Positions 11,355 through 39,612 of a DNA stretch of 39,612 bases are shown here, piece after piece; the first letter of the stretch is position 1, and every line of letters starts with the position of its first letter. Origin of the DNA: an uncultured Algibacter sp. (lineage in GTDB: Bacteria > Bacteroidota > Bacteroidia > Flavobacteriales > Flavobacteriaceae). The position numbers and the translations under genes were made by a program. The stretch spans positions 1 to 39,612 of the forward strand of contig CANMZT010000023.1 in NCBI GenBank assembly GCA_947502405.1, written 5' to 3'. The notes under the pieces were generated by a model, which worked only from the letters and a program-made list of their open reading frames with translations, made no database searches and was not told where the DNA came from.

Positions 11355-11439
11355 GGGCGTTACCCCGAAAAGGGGTCGGGCTTTCACTAGTCGCTCCTCC
11401 TGCGTCGGGAGCTTCAACATGCCGTTCAATCCCTAACGC
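11355..11439 (+). repeat. Dispersed intergenic repeat, copy 1
   Basis: Starts GGGCGTTACC and ends AATCCCTAACGC, with GCGTTA/TAACGC as terminal inverted repeats. It shares the left block (GGGTCGGGCTTTC) with four other copies in this window (17553, 19759, 26514, 39524). The interior holds its own small inverted repeat (GCTCC...GGGAGC). It sits between two same-strand genes. No target-site duplication is obvious and there is no ORF. Confidence 0.85.
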
Positions 11440-11463
11440 AAGCCTAGGCTTCACATTACACCA

Positions 11464-12324
11464 ATGAAAAACCAACACACCAATCATCTTCTATTACTAG
11501 GTTTAGCAACACTATTTATAAGCACATCTGGTGTCTTAGGAAAATACATAGACCTCCCTACACCACTAATTATATGGTTTAGAAGTGCTCTAGCAGCATT
11601 TTTTTTATTCCTATTCTGTAAATTCAAAAAGCTCAATATAACACTAAAATCTAAAAAAGATATGCCAACTATTATTCTTGGAGGCATATTATTAGGTGTA
11701 CATTGGGTCGCCTATTTTTTAGCTTTAAAATTAAGCAACGTAGCTATTGGTATGCTCTCCATGTTTACATTTCCTGTAATAACAGCCTTATTAGAACCTT
11801 TTTTTACAAAGTCTAAATTAAACCCAATACATGTGGTGTTAGGATTAATGGTGTTATTAGGCATTTACATTCTAGCACCAGAAATAAATTTTGAAAGCAC
11901 TTATTTAAGAGGTATACTCTTGGGTGTGTTTTCCGCATTTTGCTATTCACTCCGCAATCTCATTTTAAAAAGGCACGTGTCTCAATATGATGGTACCGTA
12001 TTAATGATGCAACAATGCATCATAGTAGCTGTTTTATTAATACCAATTTTATTTAATATAAATATAGAGCAAGTACAAACGCAACTACCATTTCTTTTAA
12101 TCCTAGGCTTAGTCACTACAGCTTTAGGGCACTCATTATTCATTAGCAGCCTTAAACATTTTTCAGTAAGCACTGCAAGTATCATTGGTAGCGCACAACC
12201 CATTTTTGGTATTATAATGGCATATTGCTTCTTAAACGAAATCCCTACTCTAAACACTTTTATAGGCGGAAGTTTAATTTTAGCTACCGTTATTATAGAG
12301 AGTATTCGGTCTAAAAAAGCATAG
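11464..12324 (+). CDS. EamA/DMT-superfamily transporter
   Basis: A 286-residue inner-membrane protein that is almost wholly hydrophobic, with about ten predicted membrane helices in two five-helix halves. This is the layout of EamA (drug/metabolite transporter superfamily) permeases. Features include an early SGVLGKY segment, an internal WVAYFLALKLS helix and a second-half SLRNLILKRH loop. The C-terminus ends in positive residues (RSKKA). These proteins export or exchange amino acids, nucleobases or other metabolites; the substrate cannot be told from sequence. The following BlaI gene begins 82 bp later behind its own operators, so they are probably separate units. Confidence 0.9.
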   Translation: MKNQHTNHLLLLGLATLFISTSGVLGKYIDLPTPLIIWFRSALAAFFLFLFCKFKKLNITLKSKKDMPTIILGGILLGVHWVAYFLALKLSNVAIGMLSMFTFPVITALLEPFFTKSKLNPIHVVLGLMVLLGIYILAPEINFESTYLRGILLGVFSAFCYSLRNLILKRHVSQYDGTVLMMQQCIIVAVLLIPILFNINIEQVQTQLPFLLILGLVTTALGHSLFISSLKHFSVSTASIIGSAQPIFGIIMAYCFLNEIPTLNTFIGGSLILATVIIESIRSKKA

Positions 12325-12342
12325 TCTTTTTACTTTTTTACC

Positions 12343-12405
12343 TCTACACTTGTAGAATATAAATTTTTGTTCTACATTTGTAGAAAACACTCTAACATTG
12401 TAGAA
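12343..12405 (+). promoter_or_regulatory. Three BlaI-type operators in front of the repressor gene
   Basis: Three related palindromes lie in 63 bp: TCTACACTTGTAGA at 12343-12356, TTCTACATTTGTAGAA at 12370-12385 (perfect 7-bp arms) and the imperfect TCTAACATTGTAGAA at 12391-12405, which abuts the start codon. TACA-N2-TGTA cores are the known operator style of BlaI/MecI repressors. Their position just upstream of the BlaI-like gene indicates autorepression. Confidence 0.85.
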
Positions 12406-12406
12406 C

Positions 12407-12772
12407 ATGCAACTATCAAAAACAGAAGAAGAATTAATGAATCACCTTTGGAAGCTTGAAAAAGCTTTCATGAAAGAGTTATTAGACGTTTACCCAGAAC
12501 CAAAACCAGCAAATACAACCATTGCCACACTACTAAAACGTATGACAGATAAAGGTTTTATAGACTATAAGCTTTTTGGAAAATCAAGACAATATTACCC
12601 TTTAGTAAAAAAGAAAGATTATTTCTCAAAACATGTAAACGGATTGATTAAAAACTTTTTTAATGACAGTGCATCACAATTTGCATCCTTTTTTACCAAA
12701 GAAACCAACCTAACCAAAGAAGAGTTAGAAGACTTAAAAACCTTAATTGATAGCGAAATTAAAAACAAATAG
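12407..12772 (+). CDS. BlaI/MecI/CopY-family transcriptional repressor
   Basis: A 121-residue winged-helix repressor. The N-terminal domain (residues about 1-70) starts QLSKTEEELMNHLWKLEKA and has the family-typical EPKPANTTIATLLKRM recognition helix followed by KGFIDY and a wing ending RQYYPLV. The C-terminal helices (SKHVNGLIKNFF) dimerise. In known systems the membrane peptidase BlaR1 triggers cleavage of this repressor in response to an envelope signal. Here the M56 peptidase gene follows after 2 bp, and three matching operators lie directly upstream, so the pair is probably autoregulated. No beta-lactamase gene is nearby, so the inducer and targets are unknown. Confidence 0.93.
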   Translation: MQLSKTEEELMNHLWKLEKAFMKELLDVYPEPKPANTTIATLLKRMTDKGFIDYKLFGKSRQYYPLVKKKDYFSKHVNGLIKNFFNDSASQFASFFTKETNLTKEELEDLKTLIDSEIKNK

Positions 12773-12774
12773 TT

Positions 12775-14958
12775 ATGCTTCTACTCCTTTTAAAATCTAG
12801 TGCTTGTTTAGCTATTTTTATGTTGTTTTATAAATTTTGTTTAGAACAAACAAGTGCGCATACCTTTAAACGATTCTATTTAATTATTGCAATTTTAATT
12901 TCAATTGGCATTCCGTTTATTACGTTTACTGAGTATATTTTGGTGCAACCAGTAAATAATATTCCAACTCTAGAATTTATAAATCAACCTGTTTTTGAAG
13001 CTACCAAAACCAAGCAACAACAAAACTACACCCCAATAATTTTGTGGAGTATCTACACCATTGGTGTAATAATATTTTCTTTCAGGTTCTTTAAGAATCT
13101 ATATAAGATTATTCATAAAATAAAAACCAACCCGAAGTTTAAAAATGAAAAGTTTATTAACGTTTTATTACATGATTTAATCCATCCACACACCTTTTTC
13201 AATTACATTTTTCTCAATAAAAATAAATACGAAAACAGGCTAATCCCAAAAGAGGTCCTTTTACATGAGCAAGTTCATGCTAAACAAAAGCACGCTTTAG
13301 ACATCTTGTTTATTGAAATACTTCAGATAGTTTTCTGGTTTAATCCACTATTACATTTCATAAAAAAAGACATTAAACTTAATCACGAATTTTTAGCTGA
13401 CCAAGCTGTTATTAATAGTGGAACAAACACAAAGCAATACCAACAATTACTATTAGCATTCTCATCAAATGCTTCTCACAATCAATTGGCAAACGCCATC
13501 AATTATTCATTAATCAAAAAACGATTCACAGTCATGAAAACAAAAACATCAAAAACAAAAATATGGAGCAGGAGTATTGCACTTCTACCATTATTAGCTG
13601 TCCTAGTCTACAGTTTTAGTGCTCACAAAAAAGTAGAAAAACACATGGCTACAGAAGATCCAGAAATGCATCATACCGCCAGAAGTATTGAAGTTGAAGT
13701 ACTAGAAAACGGCACATATAAAATAGACGGTATTGCTACTACCAAAGCAACATTTGTATCAACTATTAATAAATTACATCAAGACATTACCCCTGAAATT
13801 CGTAATCGCATAATAAATATTCATGTTAACGACCAAAAACTGGTTTCTGACGAAGAAGTATGGTTTATTTATAATTCGGTTCTCGATTATGGCTTTCATC
13901 GTATTGTAACTTATAACCAAGAAATAATTCGTTCAAAAGGAAATAAACCTTTTGCTATTGAAAGTTCAGATAAACAAAATGGTGCTACTAAAAAGCAAAT
14001 GGATGAATACAACGTTCTAGCCAAAAAATATAATAAACAACCTGCAAACAAACGTATCATCAAATTAAAAGATGTAAAACGTCTGGAGTATTTATATAGT
14101 TTAATGAATGAAAGTCAAAAAAATAATGCACAGCCATTACCTAATTACCCTCCACCACCTCCTAAATCTCCAAAAGTAAAAAAAGTAGAGCCATTAGATA
14201 TTCCGCCTCCACCATCTCAAGATAAAGAAACCTTTAGTGATGCTAAAATAAAAGAAAACCTATATCTATATATTTCAGAAAAAAGAAAACAACTAGATGA
14301 ACAATTGAAATCTTCTAAAACTGAAAAAGAAAAAGCAGGATTCTTAAAACTGAAAAAGTTTTTTGATGAGCGTCTTAAATTACTTGAGAAAAATTTAGAA
14401 AAAGGAGGGCCATCAGATATTGCTAATCCTCCAGCACCAGCACCTAATATAGATGAAAGTGAACCCTCAGAAACTCTAACACCTGCCAATCCAAAATCAC
14501 AATTAGACCATACAAAGCAAAATAACATTAAAGAATCAAACTCTTCACAAAAACATTACATAAATGTTCTTGTAAATGAGAATGGAGATATATTCGTAGA
14601 CACTCAAAAAGTTAATTTAAATACTCTTTCCCAAAAAATTATTGAAGTAAAGAATCAATTTATAAATAAAAAAGTCATAGACAAGGGATACAATTTTAAA
14701 TATCAAGATAAATTATCTGTAAAAGTTAAAATTGTAGGACATACTACTGGACAATATTTAGTTAATCTTAAGAAAGAAATCAAAAAGTCTAAACTTTTAA
14801 TTTCTTCTATTGAGGCTGATTCTGCTTCTCAGATTCAAAATTTTATGAATAAAAAACATGGTACTACTCCTAGTCAAGATACAATCTATGAATACAGACA
14901 AACTACTAAAATCAGTATAGATACAATAAAAAGGAATACAAAAAAGAAAAAAACTTAA
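12775..14958 (+). CDS. M56 (BlaR1-like) membrane metallopeptidase with long C-terminal extension
   Basis: A 727-residue inner-membrane protein. Membrane helices lie near residues 2-22, 33-53 and 87-104. The zinc site is HEQVH (H164, E165, H168), with NHEFLAD (E205) as third ligand. A fourth helix lies near 268-284. The roughly 440-residue extension after it contains a stretch resembling ExbD-type domains (IEVEVLENGTYKIDG, from about 305), a Pro-rich segment (near 455-480), a charged coiled-coil-like segment and a second ExbD-like stretch (INVLVNENGDIFVDTQ, near 595). It is expected to sense an envelope signal and relay it to the BlaI partner encoded 2 bp upstream. The extension is much longer than in BlaR1 and replaces the penicillin-binding sensor. 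The domain names for the extension are inferred by eye. Confidence 0.88.
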   Translation: MLLLLLKSSACLAIFMLFYKFCLEQTSAHTFKRFYLIIAILISIGIPFITFTEYILVQPVNNIPTLEFINQPVFEATKTKQQQNYTPIILWSIYTIGVIIFSFRFFKNLYKIIHKIKTNPKFKNEKFINVLLHDLIHPHTFFNYIFLNKNKYENRLIPKEVLLHEQVHAKQKHALDILFIEILQIVFWFNPLLHFIKKDIKLNHEFLADQAVINSGTNTKQYQQLLLAFSSNASHNQLANAINYSLIKKRFTVMKTKTSKTKIWSRSIALLPLLAVLVYSFSAHKKVEKHMATEDPEMHHTARSIEVEVLENGTYKIDGIATTKATFVSTINKLHQDITPEIRNRIINIHVNDQKLVSDEEVWFIYNSVLDYGFHRIVTYNQEIIRSKGNKPFAIESSDKQNGATKKQMDEYNVLAKKYNKQPANKRIIKLKDVKRLEYLYSLMNESQKNNAQPLPNYPPPPPKSPKVKKVEPLDIPPPPSQDKETFSDAKIKENLYLYISEKRKQLDEQLKSSKTEKEKAGFLKLKKFFDERLKLLEKNLEKGGPSDIANPPAPAPNIDESEPSETLTPANPKSQLDHTKQNNIKESNSSQKHYINVLVNENGDIFVDTQKVNLNTLSQKIIEVKNQFINKKVIDKGYNFKYQDKLSVKVKIVGHTTGQYLVNLKKEIKKSKLLISSIEADSASQIQNFMNKKHGTTPSQDTIYEYRQTTKISIDTIKRNTKKKKT

Positions 14959-14997
14959 AACACAACTTATTTAACAAATCATAATGATGTTATTACA

Positions 14998-15037
14998 TGA
15001 CCTGTTAGTTCTTAAAAACTAGACAGGTCATTTTTTT
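14998..15037 (+). terminator. Rho-independent terminator after the BlaI-M56 operon
   Basis: TGACCTGT...ACAGGTCA is extended by TAGTT/AACTA (one bulge), with a short loop and then seven T. It lies 40 bp past the M56 stop codon. Confidence 0.85.
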
Positions 15038-15105
15038 ACTTCAAAGTGTAACAAATCAATAGCTTTAACGTTCTAATAGTCAATCAATCAAAAAACAATC
15101 AAATC

Positions 15106-16206
15106 ATGTTAAAGCGCTTTTTTATTATCTGCTCTGGAGCGGATACCGATATTTTAAAAGAATGCTCTGTAGGAGAGCAAAACAAATACGCAGGTATTGG
15201 AGCTACCGTTTTCTTTACTGCTGTTATGGCTTTTATAGCTGCAAGTTATGCGCTATATACCGTTTTTGATAACCTCTATTCTTCCATTTTCTTTGGTCTT
15301 ATCTGGGGGCTTCTCATTTTTAACTTAGACCGCTACATTGTTTCAACAATAAAAAAAACAGGACACGTTATTGACGAATTAATTCAGGCTTCTCCTAGAA
15401 TTATTTTAGCTATTATCATAGCAATGGTGATTTCAAAACCTTTAGAGTTAAAAATTTTTGAAAAAGAAATTAATCAAGTTTTATTAGAACAAAAAAATGA
15501 AATGACCTTAGCTAATAAAACGCAAATAGCTGAACAATTTACACCTAGTATAGAAGGGTTAAACAATGATATTTTAACCTTGCAACAAGAAATTGATACT
15601 AAAGAAGCTGAAGTTAATCAACTATATGACACCTATATCGCTGAAGCTGAAGGTACAGCAGGAACTAAACTATTAGGTAAAGGACCCGTTTACAAAGAAA
15701 AACGAGAAAAACACGACGCTCTTCTTGCAGAATTACAACAGTTAAAAGCAGACAATAAAGTAAAAATTGCTTCTATTGAAAGCGAAATAGTTAAACTAAA
15801 AGGCGATTACAACACACAAGTTACAACAACACAACCCATCATTAATAATTTTGATGGTTTAATGGCAAGAGTTGATGCTTTAGGAAAACTACCTTGGCTA
15901 CCATCTTTCTTTATTTTTATGTTGTTTTTGGCTATTGAAACATCACCAATTTTCGCGAAACTGTTATCTCCAAAAGGCGCTTACGATTTTAAATTGGATG
16001 ACCAAGAAACAGCGTTAAAAACCAATGTGCTTCAAAACAAAAACCAACGTGAGGCCATGCTAAAAACGGATTACGCCATTAACGATCGTATATATAGTGA
16101 TATTGAAAAAGAGGACGAATTATATAACTACAAGCGCAAAAAAGCGAGGGAACTTATGCAATTGCAGGCCGATGCCTTTTATAAAAAACAAAAAAATATA
16201 CTATAA
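15106..16206 (+). CDS. DUF4407 domain membrane protein
   Basis: A 366-residue inner-membrane protein of the DUF4407 family. It starts with the family hallmark FFIICSGAD, followed by two close helices (about 29-50 and 57-75), the conserved FNLDRYIVS motif and a third helix (about 94-107). A long charged central segment (about 120-245) is rich in Gln, Glu and Lys and is likely coiled coil. A last helix (WLPSFFIFMLFLAIETSPIF, about 263-283) and a basic tail follow. Function of the family is unknown. The gene is monocistronic and converges with the STAS gene, the two stop codons being directly adjacent. Confidence 0.92.
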   Translation: MLKRFFIICSGADTDILKECSVGEQNKYAGIGATVFFTAVMAFIAASYALYTVFDNLYSSIFFGLIWGLLIFNLDRYIVSTIKKTGHVIDELIQASPRIILAIIIAMVISKPLELKIFEKEINQVLLEQKNEMTLANKTQIAEQFTPSIEGLNNDILTLQQEIDTKEAEVNQLYDTYIAEAEGTAGTKLLGKGPVYKEKREKHDALLAELQQLKADNKVKIASIESEIVKLKGDYNTQVTTTQPIINNFDGLMARVDALGKLPWLPSFFIFMLFLAIETSPIFAKLLSPKGAYDFKLDDQETALKTNVLQNKNQREAMLKTDYAINDRIYSDIEKEDELYNYKRKKARELMQLQADAFYKKQKNIL

Positions 16207-16488
16207 TTATGCTGCTGCTGATTCTGTTTTAAAATGATCGTATAATTCTTTACAACCTAAACCAACAATTGATAATTTTTTGTTTTTATTTAAAGCTTCT
16301 TCATGAAGTTTTGCAATAGCATCAACACCATATTTATCCATACTAATGATATCTTGAATACTTATAGTAAGATTGTTTACTCTTTCAAAAATATTGTTGA
16401 ACTCGTTGTTAAATACACCAACACTATTTTTGTTAAGAATTCCTTTTACCTTGAAGAAATTGTTGCAATTCGTAATTTGAAAATCCAT
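16207..16488 (-). CDS. STAS-domain protein (anti-sigma-factor-antagonist-like)
   Basis: A 93-residue cytosolic protein with the beta-alpha layout of STAS domains: KGILNKNSVGVFNNEF, NLTISIQDIISMDKYGVDAIAKLHEEA and KKLSIVGLGCKELYDHF. The position corresponding to the phosphorylatable Ser of SpoIIAA appears to be the DIISMDKYG motif (Ser at about residue 49). No anti-sigma kinase or sigma gene is adjacent, so the partner is unknown. Similar orphan STAS proteins occur in Flavobacteriaceae. The fold call rests on pattern only. Confidence 0.75.
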   Translation of the reverse strand: MDFQITNCNNFFKVKGILNKNSVGVFNNEFNNIFERVNNLTISIQDIISMDKYGVDAIAKLHEEALNKNKKLSIVGLGCKELYDHFKTESAAA

Positions 16489-16670
16489 AATAAAGTGATT
16501 TTTTAAGGGTTATAAAATAAACTTGAGGGAGATAATCATCTGATTACAAGGTAAAAGTATTAAAGTACAAAGCTAAGAACATAATTTAATCGATAAATAG
16601 ATTTTAACTTTAGATGAAAAAATACTTTCTGTAAATTTCATCGGTGAGTAACCTTTTTTAGTTGCGATAT

Positions 16671-16699
16671 TTTGTTACATTTACTTTAGCTTATCTTTC
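16671..16699 (+). promoter_or_regulatory. Possible Bacteroidetes-type promoter for the NTF2-like gene
   Basis: TTTG at 16671-16674 and TATCTTTC at 16692-16699 (one mismatch to TAnnTTTG) are separated by 17 bp, upstream of the gene starting at 16765. Such boxes are short and can arise by chance in AT-rich DNA. Confidence 0.35.
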
Positions 16700-16764
16700 C
16701 AAATATGAATATTGGTATAAGTTTTGCTCTAAACAACGTGAACTTAATGTAAACATTTTAAAAA

Positions 16765-17196
16765 ATGAAAAAACTACTTGTATTACTTTTTATGGTATGT
16801 TTCTTTAATGGATTTTCGCAATCAAATGAAGAAGCTGATATTAAAGCCATCAACAAAGTTTTAAAAAAGCAACGTATTGCTTGGTCCAACAACGATATTG
16901 AAGGCTACATGAAAGGCTACTGGAAAAGTGACTCTCTTAAGTTTTATGGAACTAATGGTGTAACCTACGGTTGGGAGAATACCTTGGAGCGCTACCAAAA
17001 AGCTTACCCAACAAAAAAACATACTGGGAAATTAAGCTTTAGAATTAATGATGTTTCAAAAATAAGCGAAGGTGCTTATTTTGTTTTAGGAGAGTACCAT
17101 ATTAAGCGCGATATGGGAAATGCCGATGGTATTTTTATGCTTGTATTTAAACAGATTAATGGAGAATGGAAAATTATTGCAGACACCTCAACTTGA
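16765..17196 (+). CDS. Secreted NTF2-like (DUF4440/SnoaL-type) protein
   Basis: A 143-residue protein with a clear signal peptide (MKKLLVLLFMVCFFNGFSQ). The mature part looks like the NTF2-like/DUF4440 cone fold: a long N-terminal helix (IKAINKVLKKQRIAWSNNDIE), GYMKGYWKSDSLKFYG, GWENTLERYQKAYP, then strands ending in FMLVFKQINGEWKIIADTST, the family-typical closing motif. Members bind small hydrophobic ligands or act as isomerases, and many have no known activity. It is a single gene likely located in the periplasm. Confidence 0.85.
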   Translation: MKKLLVLLFMVCFFNGFSQSNEEADIKAINKVLKKQRIAWSNNDIEGYMKGYWKSDSLKFYGTNGVTYGWENTLERYQKAYPTKKHTGKLSFRINDVSKISEGAYFVLGEYHIKRDMGNADGIFMLVFKQINGEWKIIADTST

Positions 17197-17207
17197 TAAA
17201 ACTACTT

Positions 17208-17480
17208 TTACTGCTTTAATTTCTTGATGGTCTCTTGATGCTTTTCCAAATCTACTGGGTTATAAATAACCTTTTTTGATACTGGATATTTTTCTAGAAG
17301 ATGTTTTGGGCGTATTGGTCTGTTATGAAAATTACCACCACAGTTTGGACAGACTTTTTGAAGTAAATTTTCCACACAATCTTTACAAAAAGTACATTCA
17401 AAAGTACAAATCATTGCGTCTTTAGAATCGTACGGTAAAGATTTATTACAGTTTTCGCAAGTTGGTCTTATTTCTAACAT
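17208..17480 (-). CDS. DUF1272 zinc-binding small protein
   Basis: A 90-residue protein starting LEIRPTCENCNKSLP, the signature of DUF1272. Four Cys pairs are visible: CENC, CTFECTFC, CKDC-like (FCKDCVENLL) and CPNCGG, enough to bind zinc in a treble-clef or ribbon arrangement. The C-terminal tail ends HQETIKKLKQ. The function is unknown; small cytosolic zinc proteins of this family are widespread in Proteobacteria and Bacteroidetes. It converges with the NTF2-like gene. Confidence 0.9.
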   Translation of the reverse strand: MLEIRPTCENCNKSLPYDSKDAMICTFECTFCKDCVENLLQKVCPNCGGNFHNRPIRPKHLLEKYPVSKKVIYNPVDLEKHQETIKKLKQ

Positions 17481-17552
17481 TTTATTTTATGTTGCAATAT
17501 TTTTAGCAAACCATCTAATACTTGAGATTATAACTGTTATACACAGACATGT

Positions 17553-17706
17553 GCGTTAGGGATTGCAGAGACATCCTTTTTTCTACTTATCTATAAAAAG
17601 CTTAACAGCTTAAATTTACTAAGGTTTTAATATACTTTATGAAATACTGAAACAAGTTGAGAACAAAAAAGATATAACGGAAAGCCCGACCCTTGTGGTA
17701 ACGCCC
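17553..17706 (-). repeat. Dispersed intergenic repeat, copy 2 (reverse orientation, long interior)
   Basis: Read on the minus strand it begins GGGCGTTACCACAAGGGTCG and ends GCAATCCCTAACGC, matching the ends of the other copies. The interior is about 60 bp longer than in copies 1 and 4, is AT-rich, and is flanked by a potential stem (ATCTTTTTT / AAAAAAGGAT). It lies between the DUF1272 and PhnA genes. Confidence 0.85.
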
Positions 17707-17711
17707 GCAAC

Positions 17712-18290
17712 CTATAATTTTTTTACGTAATCCGTTATAATTACAATTTGTTGTGCGCCAACTTTACCTTCTATATACTTATCATTATCTCGATCTAACC
17801 TTATATTTCTAAGTGCTGTACCTTGCTTAGCTACCATACTTGAGCCTTTTACCTTTAAGTCTTTTATCAAAACTACGGAGTCTCCATTTTGAAGTATAAC
17901 CCCATTACTATCTCTGTGGATGATTTTTTCACTTTCATCTTTATCTTCTCCTGTTGCTCTGGCAAGTGCTAAAGGATCATCATCTAGATACATCATATCT
18001 AGCAAATCTTTTGGCCAACCTTCATTTCTAAGTCGTTGTAGCATTCTCCAAGCCATAATTTGAACCGCCACATGCTCGCTCCACATACTATCGTTTAAAC
18101 AACGCCAATGATTGGGATCCATATCCTCGTCACCGTTTATTTGATTTAAACAGATTTTACAAACTAGAACATCATTTGCTACATTTTCGTTTAACGATGG
18201 TGGAATTGTATATTGCTTTAAATCTTCTTTAGAAGCACATAATTCGCAAGAGTTATTGCTACGTTCTTGTAATGTTTGTAATACGCTCAT
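17712..18290 (-). CDS. PhnA/YjdM-type zinc-ribbon protein
   Basis: I chose the ATG at 18288-18290 (product 192 residues, MSVLQTLQERSNN). An upstream in-frame ATG at 18368 would add 26 residues that overlap terminator sequence and do not resemble the family. An N-terminal zinc site (CELC ... CKIC) is followed by a middle helical segment (HVAVQIMAWRMLQRL, GWPKDLLDMMYLDDD). The C-terminal PhnA domain contains the typical DSNGVILQNGDSVVLIKDLKVKG and TDYVKK end. PhnA proteins were named from the E. coli phosphonate locus, but their biochemical role is unsettled. No phosphonate genes are nearby. Confidence 0.92.
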   Translation of the reverse strand: MSVLQTLQERSNNSCELCASKEDLKQYTIPPSLNENVANDVLVCKICLNQINGDEDMDPNHWRCLNDSMWSEHVAVQIMAWRMLQRLRNEGWPKDLLDMMYLDDDPLALARATGEDKDESEKIIHRDSNGVILQNGDSVVLIKDLKVKGSSMVAKQGTALRNIRLDRDNDKYIEGKVGAQQIVIITDYVKKL

Positions 18291-18354
18291 TAAATATTTG
18301 TTTAATGCAATATTACATCTAAATTTAAGCGTGAACAAGTTATTGCTTAAACAA

Positions 18355-18383: not shown

Positions 18384-18400
18384 ATTATTTTATTAAAAAA

Positions 18401-19735: not shown

Positions 19736-19758
19736 ACTATTTTCAACTGTATAATTTG

Positions 19759-19870
19759 GGCGTTACCACAAGGGGCGGGCTTTCCGTTGCAAGTCCTCGC
19801 AACTCTCCCGACCCCGATAGCTATCGGGGTCGGGATCGGGCTGTGGGCTTTCCACTGCAATCCCTAACGC
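19759..19870 (+). repeat. Dispersed intergenic repeat, copy 3, with nested palindrome
   Basis: Ends match the family (GGGCGTTACCACAAGGG... and ...GCAATCCCTAACGC). Inside, between the shared AAGTCCTCGC and GCTGTGGGCT blocks, sits a perfect 30-bp palindrome at 19806-19835 centred on GATAGCTATC. Copies 4 and 5 have unrelated short interiors at the same place. Confidence 0.9.
19806..19835. repeat. Perfect 30-bp palindrome inside repeat copy 3
   Basis: TCCCGACCCCGATAG and its exact reverse complement are joined with no spacer. GC-rich in an AT-rich chromosome, it could form a cruciform or a strong RNA hairpin. I recall similar GATAGCTATC palindromes between genes in other Flavobacteriaceae, but cannot check this here. 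Confidence 0.9.
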
Positions 19871-19895
19871 GGGTCTATCCGCCAAAATCAGTATT

Positions 19896-26513: not shown

Positions 26514-26600
26514 GGCGTTACCCACAAGGGGTCGGGCTTTCTGTTACAAGTCCTCGCTTCGTTGCACTCGCTGTGGGCTTTCCTCTATAATCCCTAACGC
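26514..26600 (+). repeat. Dispersed intergenic repeat, copy 4
   Basis: Starts GGCGTTACCCACAAGGGGTC and ends AATCCCTAACGC. The interior has AAGTCCTCGC and GCTGTGGGCT blocks, identical to copies 3 and 5, around a short CTTCGTTGCACTC segment. It lies between convergent genes, so it might be transcribed from both sides. Confidence 0.9.
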
Positions 26601-28861: not shown

Positions 28862-28863
28862 GA

Positions 28864-32657: not shown

Positions 32658-32719
32658 ATGAAGAGACTTATTTGCAGTTTCCTCAAATGTATTTATAATT
32701 TTTCAATTTAGTTAATAAA

Positions 32720-32749
32720 AAAACTCATTACATTTATGTAATGAGTTTT
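32720..32749 (-). terminator. Hairpin terminator between mini-lipoprotein and kinase gene
   Basis: A 14-bp perfect stem (AAAACTCATTACAT/ATGTAATGAGTTTT) with a two-base loop. It lies 27 bp past the lipoprotein stop and 62 bp before the kinase start, and would either end the short transcript or attenuate readthrough into the kinase gene. Confidence 0.8.
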
Positions 32750-32775
32750 AGGTTAATTTTTAACAAATTAATTTA

Positions 32776-32925
32776 TTATTGGTCTACACCACCACCTGTA
32801 TAAGGGGTCACTTCTGTATTTTCTTCAGCTTTCTGAATATCACCTTCATTTAAATCTTGTTTAGTACAAGAGGTTAAAGCAGCTAAAAACAATGTAGCAA
32901 TTAAAGTAATTTTTAAGGTTTTCAT
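32776..32925 (-). CDS. Mini-lipoprotein (49 residues)
   Basis: I chose the ATG at 32923-32925 (MKTLKITLIATLFLAALTSC...). An upstream in-frame ATG at 32964 would add a charged stretch before the signal peptide. The lipobox LTSC places the lipidated Cys at about 20, leaving a mature peptide of about 30 residues: acidic (EGDIQKAEENTEV) and ending TGGGVDQ. Short lipopeptides of this kind with a Gly-rich tail occur in Flavobacteriaceae, but I know no function. Its place directly upstream of a TPR kinase and regulator makes it a possible ligand or regulated target; this is inference. Confidence 0.65.
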   Translation of the reverse strand: MKTLKITLIATLFLAALTSCTKQDLNEGDIQKAEENTEVTPYTGGGVDQ

Positions 32926-33095
32926 ATTAATTCGAATTTTAAGGTTTAAACATATTTTCTCCATTCCTAGGAATAGATTTTTTGACTAAAACTTTGAAAA
33001 CAAAATTCTAGTAAGGGAAAAATGGATAATTAACTTAAAATCGAATACACAAAATCATGTAGAACGATTCTATAATTTTATTTTTTGAGGGGTGT

Positions 33096-33109
33096 GACCT
33101 ATATAGGTC
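33096..33109. promoter_or_regulatory. Perfect palindrome GACCTATATAGGTC upstream of the mini-lipoprotein
   Basis: A perfect 14-bp inverted repeat in the 367-bp spacer between the lipoprotein and LacI genes, about 170 bp upstream of the lipoprotein start. Another perfect palindrome, ATTCCTAGGAAT, lies at 32963-32974. Either could be an operator; no binding protein can be assigned. Confidence 0.4.
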
Positions 33110-33210
33110 TAAATGGATTAATTTTCTTAAAATGAACTTAGGGAATAATATGAGTCGCTCAATTAAGGAGTGCTAAAATATAAGCCAGAGTTGATATTCA
33201 AATGTTTTTT

Positions 33211-33261
33211 TCGACAAAACGTAAAATATTCGACGAAATACATGTTTTTTTATCGACGAAA
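33211..33261. promoter_or_regulatory. Three spaced TCGACRAAA motifs
   Basis: TCGACAAAA at 33211-33219, TCGACGAAA at 33230-33238 and TCGACGAAA at 33253-33261, each in a similar T-tract context. Spacings are 19 and 23 bp. They lie at the LacI-gene 3' side and upstream of the lipoprotein on the minus strand, the position expected for activator sites of that gene. Confidence 0.45.
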
Positions 33262-33292
33262 TGCAAAATACCCCTGTTTTGTGTGTGATAGA

Positions 33293-34294
33293 TTACAAGG
33301 TAGATTTATTTCTTATAACACTCGTCTTAACTATTTTAGTTTTTACATCTCCAACTGATGGATTTTGAATCCTTTCGATAAGTAATTTTGCAGCATTGGC
33401 TCCTATAACTTTGGCATGCTGTCTAATAGTTGTCAACTTAGGTAAGGTATGATTGGAATCAGATTTACTAGCAAAAGCAATTACTGAAATATCCTTAGGA
33501 ACTTTTAATCCAAAACTAACAGCTGTATTAAGAGAAATGATACCCGAAGAACTATCTGCAGCAACAACCGCATCAATAGATCTGTTTTTCTTAAAAAGTG
33601 ATTTTATTTTCTTTTGATGGTCGTCTTTTTTCTTAATTTTTAAAACTTTAGGCTCTAAAGTCCCTGTTTCTAATATGGCCTTGTTATAACCACGCTCTCG
33701 TAATTTCCCAACGCTTAGATCATTGATATTGCTAATAAAAACAATGTGCTTTCGTCCTTCTTCTATAAGACCCTTTGTAGCATTATAAGTAGCATCAAAA
33801 TCGTCAACAATAACCTTATCGCACATAACATCATGCGCTACTCTATCAAACATAACTATAGGTAAACCTTGTTGAATGGTGCGCTTAAAATGTTCTACTT
33901 CATTATTTATTTGCGACTCTTCAGCAACGGATAGAATAAAACCATCTACACTTCCACTGGCTAACAATTGCAAACTTTCCTTTTCCTTTTCTAGAGATTC
34001 GTTTGAAATACATGTTATAATATTATACCCTTGTTTTGTTGCCTCTCTTTCTATACCAAAAAGCACTTTAGCTAAAAATCTATTAAGTATGTTAGGGATT
34101 ATAACACCAATGGTTTTTGTCTTATTATTTTTTAAACTAAGTGCTACTTTATTAGGTTTATAATTATACAATTCAGCAAGCTCTTTAACGCGTCTCACTG
34201 TATCTTCCCCTATTTCTTCGCTATTATTTAAAGCTTTTGAAACTGTTGATATTGATACGTTTAACTCCCTTGCTAACTGTTTTAGTGTAACCAT
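33293..34294 (-). CDS. LacI-family transcriptional regulator
   Basis: A 333-residue regulator. The N-terminal HTH has TLKQLARELNVSISTVSKALNNSEEIGEDT (about 3-32), the hinge helix KPNKVALSLKNNKTKTIGVIIPNILN follows, and the periplasmic-binding-like sensor domain extends to the end (FDRVAHDVMCDKVIVDDFDATYNAT, SIDAVVAADSSSGIISLNTA, KVPKDISVIAFASKSD, TIRQHAKVIGANAAKLLIERI). Such regulators usually bind a sugar and control nearby uptake genes. It is divergent from a TonB-dependent receptor, 186 bp away, which is the likely target. No catabolic enzyme is nearby. Confidence 0.95.
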   Translation of the reverse strand: MVTLKQLARELNVSISTVSKALNNSEEIGEDTVRRVKELAELYNYKPNKVALSLKNNKTKTIGVIIPNILNRFLAKVLFGIEREATKQGYNIITCISNESLEKEKESLQLLASGSVDGFILSVAEESQINNEVEHFKRTIQQGLPIVMFDRVAHDVMCDKVIVDDFDATYNATKGLIEEGRKHIVFISNINDLSVGKLRERGYNKAILETGTLEPKVLKIKKKDDHQKKIKSLFKKNRSIDAVVAADSSSGIISLNTAVSFGLKVPKDISVIAFASKSDSNHTLPKLTTIRQHAKVIGANAAKLLIERIQNPSVGDVKTKIVKTSVIRNKSTL

Positions 34295-34442
34295 TCTTCT
34301 AACACATAAATTTTATGACTACGCAATTTACAAAAATACTATCATCCATTAAGGATTATTTAATAAATACCAATGTTTTACTATTAAACTTTAATCCATA
34401 AAATTTGTCTGATAAAAAGAAAAATTAAACACTTTTTATAAA

Positions 34443-34450
34443 TAACTTTG
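34443..34450 (+). promoter_or_regulatory. Possible -7 element of the TonB receptor gene
   Basis: TAACTTTG matches TAnnTTTG about 30 bp before the start codon at 34481. A TTTG at 34404-34407 is too far for the usual -33 spacing. Within the same spacer GGATTA near 34355 and TAATCC near 34391 could be halves of an operator. Confidence 0.35.
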
Positions 34451-34480
34451 GCCTTTATTTTACATAACTAGCTTTCAGAC

Positions 34481-36988
34481 ATGAAATACATTAAATCAAC
34501 TATTTTTTTTCTTCTTGTAGGAACTCAATTTATTTATAGTCAGATTTCAGGAAAAGTAATTGATGCTAACTCAAACACCCCTCTAGAATATGCTACAGCT
34601 GCACTATATTCAAAACTCAATAAAGAGTTAATTACAGGAGTAATTACAAATGAAAATGGCACTTTTTCTATTGAAAACATAAAAAAAGGAACTTACTATC
34701 TAGAAGTTTCTTTTATTGGTTATGAAATAAAAACTATTGATGATATAGAAGTAGCTAATAAAAATAGTACTGTTCCTCTGGGTAATATAGCTTTAATTAT
34801 TGGCAAAAATCAGTTAGATGCTGTTGTTGTAAAAGGCGAAAACGCAACTGTAATCAATAAAATTGACAGACAAGTATTTAACACCAAAACCTTCCAAAAC
34901 ACAAAAGGTGGTTCTGCTACAGATGTTATTAAAAACTTACCTTCAGTTAGTGTAAATGGTTTAGGTGAGATTAGTGTTCGCGGGAGTAGTGGTTTCGTTG
35001 TGCTTCTCGATGGAAAACCCGTTCAAGGCAATGCATCTACCCTTTTAAATCAATTGCCTGCAAATGCACTTGAGCGTGTAGAGGTGATTACAGCACCATC
35101 AGCTAAATACGACCCTGAAGGGAAAGCTGGAATTTTAAACATTATTACTAAACGCGGTGGCGTTAGTGGTAATTTTGCTCAAATAAACGTTAGTGCGGGT
35201 TTGCCTTCTATTGAAGATTATAACAATAAAGAAAACACACAGCGTTACGGCATTGATGGTACTTACAATATAAGAAGAGAAAAATGGAATATCTCTATTG
35301 GTGCTAATTACCAAAGAAAAGATATTAGCGGTAGACGTGAAGGCGATGTTTGGACTATTGTAGATGATGTGTTTACTAGTTTTCCATCGGACGGAGAACG
35401 TAGTTTTGATGAAGAAAATTTTTCAGGAAGATTTACTGTTGATTTTACACCTAATACTAATGATGAATTTTCTTTAGGATTTTACGCTGGAAAGCGAGAA
35501 AAAGCTCGAACTGCAGATATCCTTTACAATAATGAAGCGTATCCTGTTGATGATGAGGATAACAAGATTTTTGAGCTTTCATATTTCAATGAAAACCTAA
35601 GAATTAGAAAAGGAGATTTTGTTTTAGGAAGTTTTGATTATGCACATACGTTTAATAACAAGTCGAAATTATCTTCTTCTTTTTTATATGAATACACATT
35701 ATTAGGAGGACCAACAACTAATAGAAACTTAAACTTCCCGAATACTGAAAGTTTAATTCAAGATGAGTTTAATACTAACGACAATCCGCTAAATGGTTTC
35801 AGAGCGCAGTTAGATTACTTATGGAAACCACTTTCATTTGGAACTTTAGAAACAGGTTATCAATTTAGAACTTTAGATAATAGAGGAGATTTTTTCTACG
35901 GAAGACGAACTAATTTTAATGACGATTTTGAAAGAGTTGATTTATTCTCAAGTGATATTGATTTAATAAGAACCATCCATTCTACTTATGCGCAATTAAG
36001 TGGTAAAAAAGACAAATGGGAATATGCTGCAGGTTTACGTTTAGAAATTCTTGATCGAGAGCTAATTCTAGCCGATAAAGCAGGCACTTTTCAAGAAAAT
36101 TTAGATTACAACTACGAAAAACTATTCCCTTCTGCTTCTGTACAATATAGCGTTAATGAGAAAACTAATTTAAAATTAGCTTACAGTAAGCGTGTTGACA
36201 GACCTTCTGCATTTAAACTAAATCCGTTTAGAGAGCGGGAGCATTCTGAAACTTTAGAGCAGGGTGATAAAAATTTACTACCTGAGTTTATTGATTTAGT
36301 AGAACTTGGTATCACAAAAAAATTCAATAAAGGCAATTCTATTTTTGCCACAGCCTATTTTAGAAATGTTGAAAATTTAGTAAATCGTGTAAACCAGATT
36401 TATAGCGGCCCTCCTATTGATCCTGACGATTCTCGTTTTGATAATGTGGTATTAGACCGTATATACTCTAATGTAGGCACAGGACGTTCTCTTGGTTTAG
36501 AATTAGGTACACAATTAAAACCAACTGAGAAATGGAGTAATTTTATAGGATTTAATATTTACAACTTTCAAATTGATGGTGCTTATAATGGCGAAAAAAT
36601 TGATAACAATGCTACTCAGTATTCTATTAATGCAAATAGCACCTTTGATTTCTCTGATACAGCAACACTTCAATTTACTTTAAATTATTTATCTAAAAGA
36701 CAAACTGCTCAAGGAGAAGATTCAAGATTCTACTCGCCTAATTTAAGTTTCAAAAAGAGTTTCTTAAACAATCAATTAGTCGCTACCCTACAATGGCAAA
36801 ACATTGATATGGGTTTACTTGACACTAATGAGCAACGTATAACGACCTCAAGACCTAGTGAATTTTTTACCACAACAAACTATGTTTACGAAGTTGATGT
36901 AGTAATGCTAAACCTATCCTATTCGTTTAATAAAACTAAAAGTAAAGCGAAGTTTATTGATAGTGAGTTTGGTAAGCGGGAGTTTTAA
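34481..36988 (+). CDS. TonB-dependent receptor-like outer-membrane protein (PF14905-type beta barrel)
   Basis: An 835-residue protein. Signal peptide about 1-20 (ending IYSQ); a carboxypeptidase-regulatory-like domain lies at about 22-100 (ISGKVIDANSNTPLEYATAAL, ENIKKGTYYLEVSFIGYE). The plug domain at about 120-225 has SVRGSSGFVVLLDGKPVQG and ERVEVITAPSAKYDPEGKAGILNIITKR, the hallmark of this subgroup. A long beta-barrel runs to the end (FGKREF, with a terminal Phe typical of outer-membrane proteins). These import or bind glycans, siderophores or peptides with TonB. No SusD-like partner is encoded next to it; regulation is probably by the divergent LacI protein. Confidence 0.93.
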   Translation: MKYIKSTIFFLLVGTQFIYSQISGKVIDANSNTPLEYATAALYSKLNKELITGVITNENGTFSIENIKKGTYYLEVSFIGYEIKTIDDIEVANKNSTVPLGNIALIIGKNQLDAVVVKGENATVINKIDRQVFNTKTFQNTKGGSATDVIKNLPSVSVNGLGEISVRGSSGFVVLLDGKPVQGNASTLLNQLPANALERVEVITAPSAKYDPEGKAGILNIITKRGGVSGNFAQINVSAGLPSIEDYNNKENTQRYGIDGTYNIRREKWNISIGANYQRKDISGRREGDVWTIVDDVFTSFPSDGERSFDEENFSGRFTVDFTPNTNDEFSLGFYAGKREKARTADILYNNEAYPVDDEDNKIFELSYFNENLRIRKGDFVLGSFDYAHTFNNKSKLSSSFLYEYTLLGGPTTNRNLNFPNTESLIQDEFNTNDNPLNGFRAQLDYLWKPLSFGTLETGYQFRTLDNRGDFFYGRRTNFNDDFERVDLFSSDIDLIRTIHSTYAQLSGKKDKWEYAAGLRLEILDRELILADKAGTFQENLDYNYEKLFPSASVQYSVNEKTNLKLAYSKRVDRPSAFKLNPFREREHSETLEQGDKNLLPEFIDLVELGITKKFNKGNSIFATAYFRNVENLVNRVNQIYSGPPIDPDDSRFDNVVLDRIYSNVGTGRSLGLELGTQLKPTEKWSNFIGFNIYNFQIDGAYNGEKIDNNATQYSINANSTFDFSDTATLQFTLNYLSKRQTAQGEDSRFYSPNLSFKKSFLNNQLVATLQWQNIDMGLLDTNEQRITTSRPSEFFTTTNYVYEVDVVMLNLSYSFNKTKSKAKFIDSEFGKREF

Positions 36989-37227
36989 ATAAAAAAGAGC
37001 TACAATTTTTTGTAACCCCTTTTAATTTATTCACTAATAGCATTTATAAGACACACTTATTTCTAAAAAGTCACATAGCACTAAACAGTTATAATCTATA
37101 AAACAAAAAAGCTTCACAATTTCGATAACTCGAAAAAGGAAAGCTTTCCATTGGATTACCAAATTGCTTTGGCAAACTACATCCTAGACACCTCTAGGAC
37201 AACACAACATCTTTTAATTACCCAAAA

Positions 37228-37249
37228 AAGCTCTAATTTCTCAGAGCTT
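37228..37249 (-). terminator. Rho-independent terminator of tRNA-Asp
   Basis: AAGCTCT/AGAGCTT stem with an eight-base loop, followed by a run of T on the minus strand. It lies 17 bp beyond the tRNA 3' end. Confidence 0.75.
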
Positions 37250-37265
37250 CTTTTGCAATTTTTTG

Positions 37266-37339
37266 CGGTCTGGACGGGACTCGAACCCGCGACCTTCGCC
37301 GTGACAGGGCGACATTCTAACCAACTGAACTACCAGACC
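37266..37339 (-). tRNA. tRNA-Asp (anticodon GUC)
   Basis: A 74-nt minus-strand cloverleaf. Acceptor GGTCTGG/CCAGACC, T8-A9, D loop AGTTGGTTA. The anticodon stem TCGCC/GGCGA has loop CTGTCAC, giving anticodon GTC. The T arm is GCGGG-TTCGAGT-CCCGT and the discriminator is G. CCA is not encoded. Confidence 0.96.
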
Positions 37340-37419
37340 GTTGCATTATTGCGGTTGCAAATATACACGCCTTTTTTTATATCTCAAATCTTTTTTCTCT
37401 TTTTTATAGAAAAAAATTA

Positions 37420-38349
37420 TCAAGAGAACTTTTGACGTTCTATCATATAGGTTGTGAGGATGTTATTAAAATCTTTATTAATATCAGCCTCAACATATTT
37501 TATTTTGTACTGCGCACATTTTAATCGCAAGGCTTCAAAATAAGTATCTACTGTTTTACTATAACTCTCTTTTATAGAATCGGCGTATAAATTAATATAC
37601 TCACCTGTTTCAACATCAATAAAACGCTTTGGTTTGTTATCAAAATCAAAGTTTAATTCTTTGGCTTTGTCAAATACATGAAACAAAACCACCTCATGCT
37701 TATTATACTTTAAATGACGTAAAGCTTCAAATAACCTTAACTCATCTTCAGAGGTTTGAAACATATCTGTAAATAAAAATATCATAGAACGCCTATGAAT
37801 CTTTTCGGCTATTTCATGAAGATACTTATACGTTTCTGTTTGTTTATTCTGCGGTTTAGAAACTACAGCTTCACTTAAATGATTCAACAACATTTGATGA
37901 TGACGCTCACTACCCTTTTCAGGTGCGTAATAATCATAATCATCACTATAAATACTTAAACCAACAGCATCACGTTGCTTTTTTAAAATCTGCATTAACG
38001 AAGCCGCTGCTAATGCCGAAAAGCCAACTTTATTCAAACTATCAATAGAAAATGCATCTAGTTTAGGATAATGCATCGAACTACTATTATCTAGTATAAT
38101 ATGGCACCGTAAATTTGTTTCATCATCATAGCGTTTGGTGTAAAGCTTATCTGTTTTAGCAAATAATTTCCAATCTATATGCCGTGTACTTTCACCTTGA
38201 TTATAAATTTTATGCTCAGCGAATTCTGCAGAAAACCCATGAAACGGACTCTTGTGCATCCCAGCAATAAAACCCTCAACCACCTGTTTTGCAAGTAATT
38301 CAAGATTTTTAAAACCCTCTGCTTTATTAAGTTCGTTTTGTAAATTCAT
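37420..38349 (-). CDS. DUF58 domain protein (BatA-neighbour type)
   Basis: I prefer the ATG at 38347-38349 (MNLQNELNKAEG, 309 residues); an ATG three codons earlier is equally possible. The DUF58 signature appears as GESTRHIDWKLFAKTDKLYTKRYDDE (about 53-77), followed by a von Willebrand-A-like domain with DNSSSM (MIDAS-like DxSxS, about 87-92) and FLFTDMFQTSEDE. These proteins usually act with a MoxR AAA ATPase in metal-dependent complex maturation or stress resistance. Neither a MoxR nor a BatA gene is adjacent within the window. It is cytosolic with no membrane helix. Confidence 0.9.
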   Translation of the reverse strand: MNLQNELNKAEGFKNLELLAKQVVEGFIAGMHKSPFHGFSAEFAEHKIYNQGESTRHIDWKLFAKTDKLYTKRYDDETNLRCHIILDNSSSMHYPKLDAFSIDSLNKVGFSALAAASLMQILKKQRDAVGLSIYSDDYDYYAPEKGSERHHQMLLNHLSEAVVSKPQNKQTETYKYLHEIAEKIHRRSMIFLFTDMFQTSEDELRLFEALRHLKYNKHEVVLFHVFDKAKELNFDFDNKPKRFIDVETGEYINLYADSIKESYSKTVDTYFEALRLKCAQYKIKYVEADINKDFNNILTTYMIERQKFS

Positions 38350-38457
38350 TTTTATCAAAAGATACTAGACCATTTCATTCCTAGAATCAAGAAACAAGAC
38401 ATCAAAAAAATTCAAAACTCATCTCTTTTCTTGCTTCTCTTCTCTCTTTTCTAATCT

Positions 38458-38997
38458 CTATATCACAGCATCAACAATCCCATAAGCCACAGACTCCTCT
38501 GCTCCCATCCAATGGTCACGATTAAAATCTTTCATCACTTTTTCAAAAGTTTGCCCACAATTATCCGCTAAAATTTTAGCACTTAATTCTTTCGTCTTTA
38601 AAATTTCTTGCGCTGTAATCTCAATATCGCTAGCTTGCCCACGAGCACCACCACTTGGTTGATGAATCATTACACGAGCATGCGGCTGAATAAAACGCTT
38701 ACCTTTTGCACCAACTGATAACAAAATAGAACCCATAGAAGCGGCTAAACCAGTACAAATAGTTGACACATCACTTTTTAAAGACTTTATACAATCGTAC
38801 ATGGCGAATCCTGAGGTTACATAACCGCCTGGGCTGTTTATATATAATTGAATATCGGCGGTTTCTAATGCATCCAAATAGAGTAATCTATCAATCACAT
38901 GTTTAGCAGACTCATCATCTACCTGTCCCCATAAAAACACCTTACGTTGTTCTAGTAATTTACTATCAATTGTATCTTGAACTTTATTTTCACTCAT
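38458..38997 (-). CDS. clpP: ClpP-family serine peptidase (non-canonical paralogue)
   Basis: A 179-residue ClpP fold. The triad is S87 (AASMGS), H112 (MIHQPSGG) and D161 (FNRDHWMGAEE). The oxyanion segment INSPGGYVTSG is intact. Compared with housekeeping ClpP it is short at the N-terminus and has RKVFLWGQVDDESAKHVIDRL in place of the usual RIIFLG. The helix GGxYxAGLGIYD is altered to GGYVTSGFAMYD. This suggests the second ClpP paralogue often seen in Flavobacteriaceae, which would act with or without ClpX/ClpC. The neighbour is trxA, and both are on the minus strand with a terminator between. Confidence 0.9.
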   Translation of the reverse strand: MSENKVQDTIDSKLLEQRKVFLWGQVDDESAKHVIDRLLYLDALETADIQLYINSPGGYVTSGFAMYDCIKSLKSDVSTICTGLAASMGSILLSVGAKGKRFIQPHARVMIHQPSGGARGQASDIEITAQEILKTKELSAKILADNCGQTFEKVMKDFNRDHWMGAEESVAYGIVDAVI

Positions 38998-39023
38998 CTT
39001 ATTTTAATTTTTATCTAAAATAA

Positions 39024-39054
39024 AAAAAGGTTTACCATTACGGCAAACCTTTTT
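39024..39054 (-). terminator. Rho-independent terminator of the thioredoxin gene
   Basis: Stem AAAAAGGTTTGCC / GGTAAACCTTTTT (minus strand, one mismatch) with a five-base loop and T tail, 22 bp past the stop codon. Confidence 0.85.
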
Positions 39055-39075
39055 AACTTTCTTTTTATTTGTGTC

Positions 39076-39393
39076 TTATAAAAGACCATCAATTGCATCT
39101 GTATATGCATTTTTAGGTGCTACACCAACTTGACGTCCAACAACCTCTCCGTTCTGAAAAACCAAAACAGTAGGTATGTTACGTACACCATATTTAGCAG
39201 CAAACTCTTGGTTAGCATCAACATCAACCTTTCCTACAACAGCTTTTCCATCGTATTCATCACTAATTTGCTCAATAATTGGTCCAACCATTCTACAAGG
39301 CCCACACCAAGCAGCCCAAAAATCAACCAATACTGGTTTGTCGCTATTCAAAACTGTTTCTTCAAAAGTCGCATCTGTTATCTCTAATGCCAT
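39076..39393 (-). CDS. trxA: Thioredoxin
   Basis: A 105-residue thioredoxin with FWAAWCGPCRMVGPII (redox Cys C30 and C33), GKVDVDANQEFAAKYGVRNIPTVLVFQNGE (cis-Pro motif IPT) and a C-terminal helix. No signal peptide, so cytosolic. It reduces disulfides of ribonucleotide reductase, peroxiredoxins and similar partners. The length matches the family. It is transcribed alone from a putative promoter at 39436-39470, with a terminator before clpP. Confidence 0.97.
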   Translation of the reverse strand: MALEITDATFEETVLNSDKPVLVDFWAAWCGPCRMVGPIIEQISDEYDGKAVVGKVDVDANQEFAAKYGVRNIPTVLVFQNGEVVGRQVGVAPKNAYTDAIDGLL

Positions 39394-39435
39394 AATATTT
39401 ATATTTTAATAAGTTCTTAAATCATTTTAATCACA

Positions 39436-39470
39436 CAAAATTAGTCAAAAAATATTCCAAAGCTTACAAA
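39436..39470 (-). promoter_or_regulatory. Possible promoter of trxA
   Basis: On the minus strand TTTG (39467-39470) lies 23 bp before TAATTTTG (39436-39443), a full match to TAnnTTTG. This spacing is at the long end of the reported range. It would give a leader of about 35 nt. Confidence 0.4.
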
Positions 39471-39523
39471 CTGGCAATTTGTTTTCCCTATAATAGCATT
39501 GGTTAGTTTTATTTATACGGTTT

Positions 39524-39612
39524 GGGCGCAACCACAAGGGTCGGGCTATCCGTTCCAAGTCCTCGCTTCTGCGCTAAGGCGCAAAAGCTGTGGGCTATCC
39601 ACTACTATCCCT
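39524..39612 (+). repeat. Dispersed intergenic repeat, copy 5 (cut by window end)
   Basis: Begins GGGCGCAACCACAAGGGTCG and ends at the window edge with ACTATCCCT, just before the expected AACGC. It contains the AAGTCCTCGC and GCTGTGGGCT blocks around a hairpin-forming interior (TGCGC...GCGCA). The first terminal repeat is GCGCAA rather than GCGTTA, so its ends may have drifted. Confidence 0.85.

Follow-up and report, generated by a model that had tools for sequence, protein, structure and literature searches.

Flavo-1-related repeats in an Algibacter-like genome: folded elements whose hairpin interiors differ between orthologous sites

We analyzed a 39,612-nucleotide (nt) stretch of DNA from an uncultured Algibacter sp. 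(contig CANMZT010000023.1; the whole stretch is referred to below as the window), in which a first-pass annotation had described five intergenic elements, and found that the five are members of a family of repeats that has about 165 members in this Algibacter-like genome (3.79 Mb in 81 contigs, placed near Algibacter by its HemW relatives). In these repeats a shell, made up of a terminal stem (P1) and a side hairpin (P2), encloses a conserved core and an exchangeable hairpin (P5); at a few marked sites the interior has been replaced inside an inherited shell, and the interior versions are also found at other sites. The family is already catalogued in part: Rfam RF01705 (Flavo-1), a candidate RNA of no known function, corresponds to the reverse strand of mainly one of the family's interior types, type b. 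We propose tentatively, as a reading that may quite possibly prove correct, that Flavo-1-family repeats are single-strand hairpin DNA elements in which the shell is inherited and the tips are overwritten by host copying from other members.

Copy number, anatomy and interior types

Patterns taken from the element were matched to the genome, each beside its reversed counterpart: the core GGGTCGGGCTTTCC has 168 matches at up to two mismatches (2 for the reversed pattern), GGGCGTTACCNCAAGGGTCG has 39 (0 reversed) and AATCCCTAACGC has 141 at up to one mismatch (48 reversed), the first two counts being far above chance. Forty stretches around matches, together with the window, comprise 552,836 bases, in which we read 76 left ends, 65 of them with a recognizable right end; a first finder that demanded pairing, and returned 35 unclassified matches against 33 in the reversed control, was kept out of the statistics. 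Over these 553 kb the fixed ends, unlike interiors and palindromic inserts reported by the first-pass annotation all hold, as does its description of a structured, dispersed element.

The anatomy is written here on the strand used by that annotation (top), the Flavo-1 strand being the bottom one (genomes, contigs and loci are cited by G, C and L numbers). In this direction a copy runs from TTT through the left arm of P1 (GCGTTA), the P2 hairpin (ranging from ACC-ACAA-GGGT to long palindromes), the left arm of P3 (GGG) and CTTTC with P4 (RY) into the P5 interior, and returns through P4 (RY) with TNCAAT, the right arm of P3 (CCC) and the right arm of P1 (TAACGC) to a tail, which by reading resembles GGGYNNATCCGCCAA in many copies; TTTGG/CCAAA we read as a putative further outer stem. 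The conserved P3/P4 core is GGTCGGGCTTTCCRYT...RYTNCAATCCC. A few standard interior types recur across sites and genera, namely type a (AAGTCCTCGC...GCTGTGGGCTT), type b (ATCTTTT...AAAAGGAT), type c (GTTTTGGC...GCCAAAAGC) and type d (CAATCCC or GTCGCT ... GGGATTT or GAGCT). Hybrid interiors, with proximal arms a-like and distal arms b-like, are present as well, and so are nested palindromes (for example CCCGATAGCTATCGGG, nine of whose 11 exact occurrences in our stretches of this genome fall inside elements).

Two side observations concern the interiors. Some loops of long type-b copies (for example at L023, L250 and L256) contain a further repeat resembling GTCATTGCGAGG...GGCAATCTG. Locus L101, from the metagenome-assembled genome DT_37, is the only one with interior-less shells: at L101:2724 (+) and ~8278 (+) lie 42-nt elements (the second less regular) in which a short loop replaces the interior, and these are possibly empty shells.

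Relation to Flavo-1

Outside the window, four type-b copies of this genome exceed the cut-off of the Flavo-1 covariance model (cmscan, 42 bits), at 47.5 to 60.1 bits. Within the window, copy 2 (17550-17695, +) matches at 37.7 bits and copy 3 (reverse strand, 19769-19880) at 27.8 bits, both under the cut-off; up to E 0.5 the model finds nothing in copies 1 and 4, nor does it find anything in copy 5 at the gathering threshold, the sole threshold applied to it. Genome-wide, at least 74 matches have E no higher than 0.001 and at least 37 exceed the cut-off (lower bounds, from 150 of 917 candidates scored), and 14 control genomes have none. Of the copies that pass, at least one (C4:231054) carries an interior of type c. 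Type-b copies are thus members of Flavo-1 read on the opposite strand, with the same P3/P4/P5 core and the same pairs, and the Rfam model differs in that its 76 positions span P3 to P5 without P1 and P2. What is new here is that the shell (terminal stem and side hairpin) and interiors a, c and d also belong to the Flavo-1 family. The first-pass annotation is right that such repeats occur in other Flavobacteriaceae too; it missed that the copies with b interiors are Flavo-1 on the opposite strand. Our literature search on this repeat, on miniature inverted-repeat transposable elements (MITEs) and repeats in the group, and on its sequence strings, turned up nothing recognized as the element and no description of the exchange.

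Stem covariation and the folding strand

In 157 copies chosen without using pairing (reversed control, 0; loci L001 and L122-L141 omitted), P1, P3 and P4 covary: one P1 pair is G-C in 141 copies and A-T in 13, with one G.T, and one P3 pair is T-A in 135 and A-T in 19. Among the 155 distinct rows, cells in which another Watson-Crick pair replaces the commonest one number 32 in P1, 32 in P3 and 48 in P4 (112 in total). In an alignment of 21 of the 34 listed type-b sequences, 97.2% of cells are paired and 31 both-side changes occur, with neither figure reached by any of 500 shuffles and at most 53.1% of cells paired when the rows are slid. Covariation analysis, proposed by the first-pass annotation as a check, therefore gives a strong result both in these three stems and in the type-b rows.

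The half-way cells distinguish the strands. Pooled over the distinct rows, with the P1 end pair excluded from the main figure, they comprise 3 G.T and 21 A.C on the top strand (p 0.0003; including that pair gives 8 against 24, p 0.007), and in 56 copies from other genera (those left by a quality filter from 174 anchor matches) 0 G.T and 9 A.C (p 0.004). Because A.C on the top strand is G.U or G.T on the other, it is the Flavo-1 strand that folds; the core helices are conserved by covariation on the strand of the Flavo-1 model and, judged from these sequences, the bottom strand folds as a single strand. A symmetric process on both strands, suggested by the wobble-poor P1, was overturned by P4 and the pooled strand test.

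A true structured RNA, as in the Rfam view, would have a transcribed bottom strand, a core that binds a ligand or protein and freedom for the variable stem to change, and it is favored by the RF01705 membership, by the wobble asymmetry of a single strand and by the conservation of unpaired core positions. The placement of copies points the other way. A co-directional gene precedes the top strand in 45 of the 76 copies (in 19 of the 45 within 10 nt of the stop codon) and the bottom strand in 41 of 75, a near-equality that counts against a cis-acting RNA; about 165 dispersed copies, and interior types common to different sites, also sit poorly with an RNA gene. The passages on Flavo-1 in Weinberg et al. 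2010 (PMC2864571) rate it 'probably' an RNA and probably not cis-regulatory. In those of a Flavobacterium psychrophilum transcriptome (PMC9723704) its matches are sense and antisense alike, many of them outside transcribed regions, which again speaks against an RNA, and the entry in a 2022 review lists Flavo-1 with no function given. Exchange in place, a property of the repeats described here, is absent from these Flavo-1 passages. On balance we consider a structured RNA rather unlikely.

Interiors at orthologous sites

We compared five congeners that are 80-86% identical to the Algibacter-like genome. Own and congener copies have the same interior type in 8 of 38 pairs from 16 sites (a count that omits L043, L047 and L050), with 28% expected from type frequencies; agreement between them is no better than chance. 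Inheritance of the shell can be followed where P1 is rare. Four pairs have an identical rare P1 and different interiors, against a permuted mean of 0.40 and a maximum of 3 (0 of 2,000 permutations reach 4), the four coming from two sites, L002:16332 and L004:11591. At the former, GCGCAA/TTGCG with CCCACAAGGGG is found in the own copy (type d) and in G044 and G304 (type c); at the latter, GCATTA or GCATTC with TAATGC is found in four species whose interiors are of types a, d, d and b, and GCGTTA with a damaged right end in the own copy.

The site of window copy 1 (s1, following the open reading frame [ORF] that precedes the copy) is occupied across genera, in which other interiors are carried: loci L052, L059, L062 and L066 have in common GTGTTA/TAACAC, with core GCG/CGC, and by reading contain interiors b, b, a and b. 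In relatives the site of copy 4 (s4) is either empty or filled with various interiors, and at that of copy 3 the interior is a in the own genome and d in G044, the tails being 84% identical. The first-pass annotation is right that the interior varies like a cassette; it missed that interiors are replaced at orthologous sites, with the outer stem inherited where it is traceable.

The hybrid interiors show that exchange is not tied to a single stem level, and they suggest copying entered at several levels and not at one fixed cut. This bears on a further possibility, that the folded strand is the substrate of a dedicated recombinase or nuclease, which cuts at the core and swaps hairpin cassettes, somewhat as integrases act on attC. 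Such an enzyme would fit an exchange limited to the interior at marked sites, a core retained even in other families and a spread that is phylum-wide and patchy; several exchange levels, and interior-less shells confined to locus L101, are harder to accommodate, and no candidate gene for an exchange enzyme was found in a search that covered the Y1/RAYT families only. We think a dedicated enzyme quite unlikely. The related claim of a Bacteroidota system for hairpin-tip exchange, in which an activity on the folded single strand would swap interiors a-d among hundreds of site-fixed shells and Flavo-1 would be chiefly one cassette type and not an RNA gene, we regard as unlikely.

Integron attC sites fold from the bottom strand and have a conserved core and a variable terminal structure, with AAC on the 5' side and GTT on the 3' side. 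Our repeats resemble attC, as generally described, in the first three respects; identity with attC was rejected on polarity, which is opposite here (GCGTTA...TAACGC, with GTT 5' and AAC 3'), and the stem also differs in G033, G259 and G153. Neisserial intergenic mosaic elements (dRS3/RS) and mitochondrial double-hairpin elements have fixed flanks with variable interiors, or fast-changing hairpins, and in that general description they resemble our repeats.

Genomic position and an empty site

T occupies positions -3, -2 and -1 in 75, 73 and 66 of the 76 copies, respectively. At site L039 the relative G265 is empty: its left flank is intact to TTTATTT, the element and 42 nt are absent and there is no duplication, a difference that reflects either insertion in the own genome or precise loss in G265. 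At the remaining empty sites divergence is too high to place the junction, so the absence of target duplication stated by the first-pass annotation stands on this single clean site; a MITE of a DDE transposon would be expected to have such a duplication and a parent transposon with the same ends, and at this one site there is no duplication. An approach to replication-strand bias through local GC skew was uninformative, because skew follows gene direction.

Spread across Bacteroidota

The stricter of two patterns matches in 104 of 299 genomes of the family, with 0 to 102 matches per genome, and the looser one in 192 of 395 genomes of the phylum, mostly as single matches near the control level; outside the family the looser pattern has 48 matches in G425 and 13 in G584. 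The distribution across Bacteroidota is patchy. Copies from G425, G443, G033, G163, G153 and G259 retain the core, and the interiors of the 23 that pass the filter are 12 of type a, 6 of type b, 1 of type c and 4 unclassified. P1 is mostly GCGTTA/TAACGC in G425 and, by reading, GCTT/AAGC in G033 and G259 and AGTT/AACT in G153. As a side observation, each of four copies read in G163 (L224-L226) has an extra palindromic hairpin (CCTGCCTGCCGGTAGGCAGG-like) inside one P1 arm.

RAYT transposases and other machinery

Repetitive extragenic palindromes (REPs) and their paired forms (REPINs) are moved by REP-associated tyrosine transposases (RAYTs, of the Y1/HuH class), and such a transposase, possibly of Bacteroidetes subclass 2.6, might likewise move elements that are dispersed, structured, placed 3' of a short motif and free of duplication. 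The resemblance to REP and REPIN sequences lies in the many dispersed intergenic hairpins, here often just past stop codons; the differences are the lack of a GT[AG]G-type foot at the hairpin base in the 76 copies read, a multi-part structure with an exchangeable interior, and a RAYT not found in several copy-rich genomes. For subclass 2.6, the relevant passages of PMC6006769 describe 'atypical secondary structures' and no GT[AG]G foot rule.

The first-pass annotation had suggested looking for a RAYT whose presence correlates with copy number, and such a partner did not materialize in a search with the sensitivity of PF01797 and a four-sequence profile. PF01797 has no match in G265, G163, G209, G259, G017, G173 or G049, which have 11 to 66 element matches each, and the profile, built from four RAYT ORFs, has none in G265, G303, G163, G259, G017, G061, G173, G049, G006 or G584. 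G056 has an intact RAYT frame and 0 element matches, and four RAYT loci (L199, L200, L202 and L203) have no recognizable copy within about 1.5 kb on each side. In favor of a RAYT are a RAYT gene of the own genus that is interrupted by a single stop codon (L235, G044:C2:332472-333020), fragments in G033 and G209, and one copy in G260 (L207) about 1.4 kb from a 491-amino-acid (aa) Y1-containing frame; RAYTs may be decaying in the own group. A RAYT as a present requirement is largely refuted, and we hold movement by such an enzyme to be very improbable.

Several related domains were seen in passing. In the own genome Y1_Tnp matches once, at a Y1_Tnp/RAYT-like domain (C22:30159-30461, -; L001) in frame within a 1274-aa open frame, which we take from its reading to be a restriction-modification methylase, and G299, G300, G303 and G153 have matches in open frames that span 1074-1307 aa. 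RAYT-like domains also occur in open frames of ~490-550 aa in G300, G304, G305, G260, G153, G132, G125, G134 and G036, apparently a distinct fused form. A REPtron-like arrangement was rejected: ten of the genes between close pairs of copies belong to housekeeping or unknown families, or to none, and include no transposase.

The copies in the window

Copy placement was checked on the window sequence, and the five copies lie where the first-pass annotation had put them, within 1-2 bases (Table 1). Its account of uniform ends was overstated on the left, where GGGCGTTACCACAAGGGTCG is exact in copy 2 only (the side hairpins of copies 1 and 4 are longer, and GGGGCG stands in copy 3 and GGGCGCAACC in copy 5), and sound on the right, where AATCCCTAACGC is exact in four of the five, the fifth being truncated. 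By a crude caller no ORF of at least 70 aa lies across the five copies, again in agreement with that annotation, and one overlaps nine of the 76 copies in the stretches of the genome. The ORF at 9960-11348, upstream of copy 1, is presumably an M20-like peptidase, by reading. Elsewhere in the genome, a SAM riboswitch (RF00162, 74 bits) was seen at L002:17848-17972.

Table 1. Positions of the five repeat copies and their parts in the window
Feature	Position	Strand	Description
Copy 1	11355..11439	+	Interior type d; starts 6 nt past stop codon of ORF 9960-11348
Copy 1, P1 left arm GCGTTA	11357..11362	+	Right arm TAACGC 11434-11439; pairing by covariation over 157 copies
Copy 2	17553..17706	-	Interior type b, long form
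Copy 2, P1 right arm	17553..17558	-	Left arm 17699-17704
Copy 3	19758..19870	+	Interior type a, nested palindrome inside
Copy 3, P1 left arm	19760..19765	+	Right arm 19865-19870
Copy 3, right tail (GGGTCTATCCGCCAAA...)	19871..19895	+	Kind common to many copies; 84% identical at G044 orthologous site
Copy 4	26514..26600	+	Interior type a
Copy 4, P1 left arm	26515..26520	+	Right arm 26595-26600
Copy 5	39524..39612	+	Type a by eye; terminal-stem variant GCGCAA; truncated at window end

Proposed explanation and implications

In the explanation that we favor, tentatively as stated at the outset, the element would act at the DNA level, somewhat like a REP, and not as a regulatory RNA. Copies sit just 3' of TTT, often directly after a stop codon, and the shell, once placed, would be inherited together with its site. 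The hairpin tips would be overwritten with copies of tips from other family members, most probably during ordinary replication or repair of the hairpin after a break or stall in the tip, with copying from another element through the common core and short flanking matches; the copying itself would presumably be performed by host machinery.

Several observations weigh against this explanation. With regard to the strand, single-strand folding fits RNA equally well, the p values of the strand tests ignore kinship among copies, and a wobble in type a that favors the top strand is retained in 20 of 20. Folding energy is unremarkable in copies 1 and 4 (z -0.07 to -1.07), and was dropped as evidence on that account; copy 3, at z -3.1 to -5.6, owes its value to its palindrome. 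Bias toward a replication strand is weak (in G209 the value was attained in 18 of 500 permutations; it was computed on 91 of 96 listed matches after five were removed by eye as unlikely elements, with genome length taken as 3.9 Mb). With regard to exchange, interiors agree in 30 of 79 comparisons over all species pairs at the sites compared, and some species pairs retain them (G044-G304 in 5 of 7, G304-G265 in 5 of 6); the closest of the compared genomes are 86% identical, and exchange between near-identical strains was not observed. Since most copies have the common P1, and shell markers are few, replacement of the whole element is possible at most sites; P2 varies at some sites, and at L041 the own genome and its relatives differ in P1 too. 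Finally, in 36 of 38 pairs it is the best own paralog that has the nearer interior, and in only 5 of 38 does the ortholog have the nearer tail, a weak test because the best of ~80 paralogs is set against one ortholog, and one in which tails act like interiors.

With this explanation, a widespread orphan Rfam motif gains a testable alternative identity as a folded DNA repeat. Its copies form a natural record of hairpin interiors replaced in place while the paired outer stem is kept, a record of use in work on the breakage, copying and spread of hairpins in bacteria. Should a dedicated enzyme prove responsible after all, the family would represent a new way of moving DNA cassettes.

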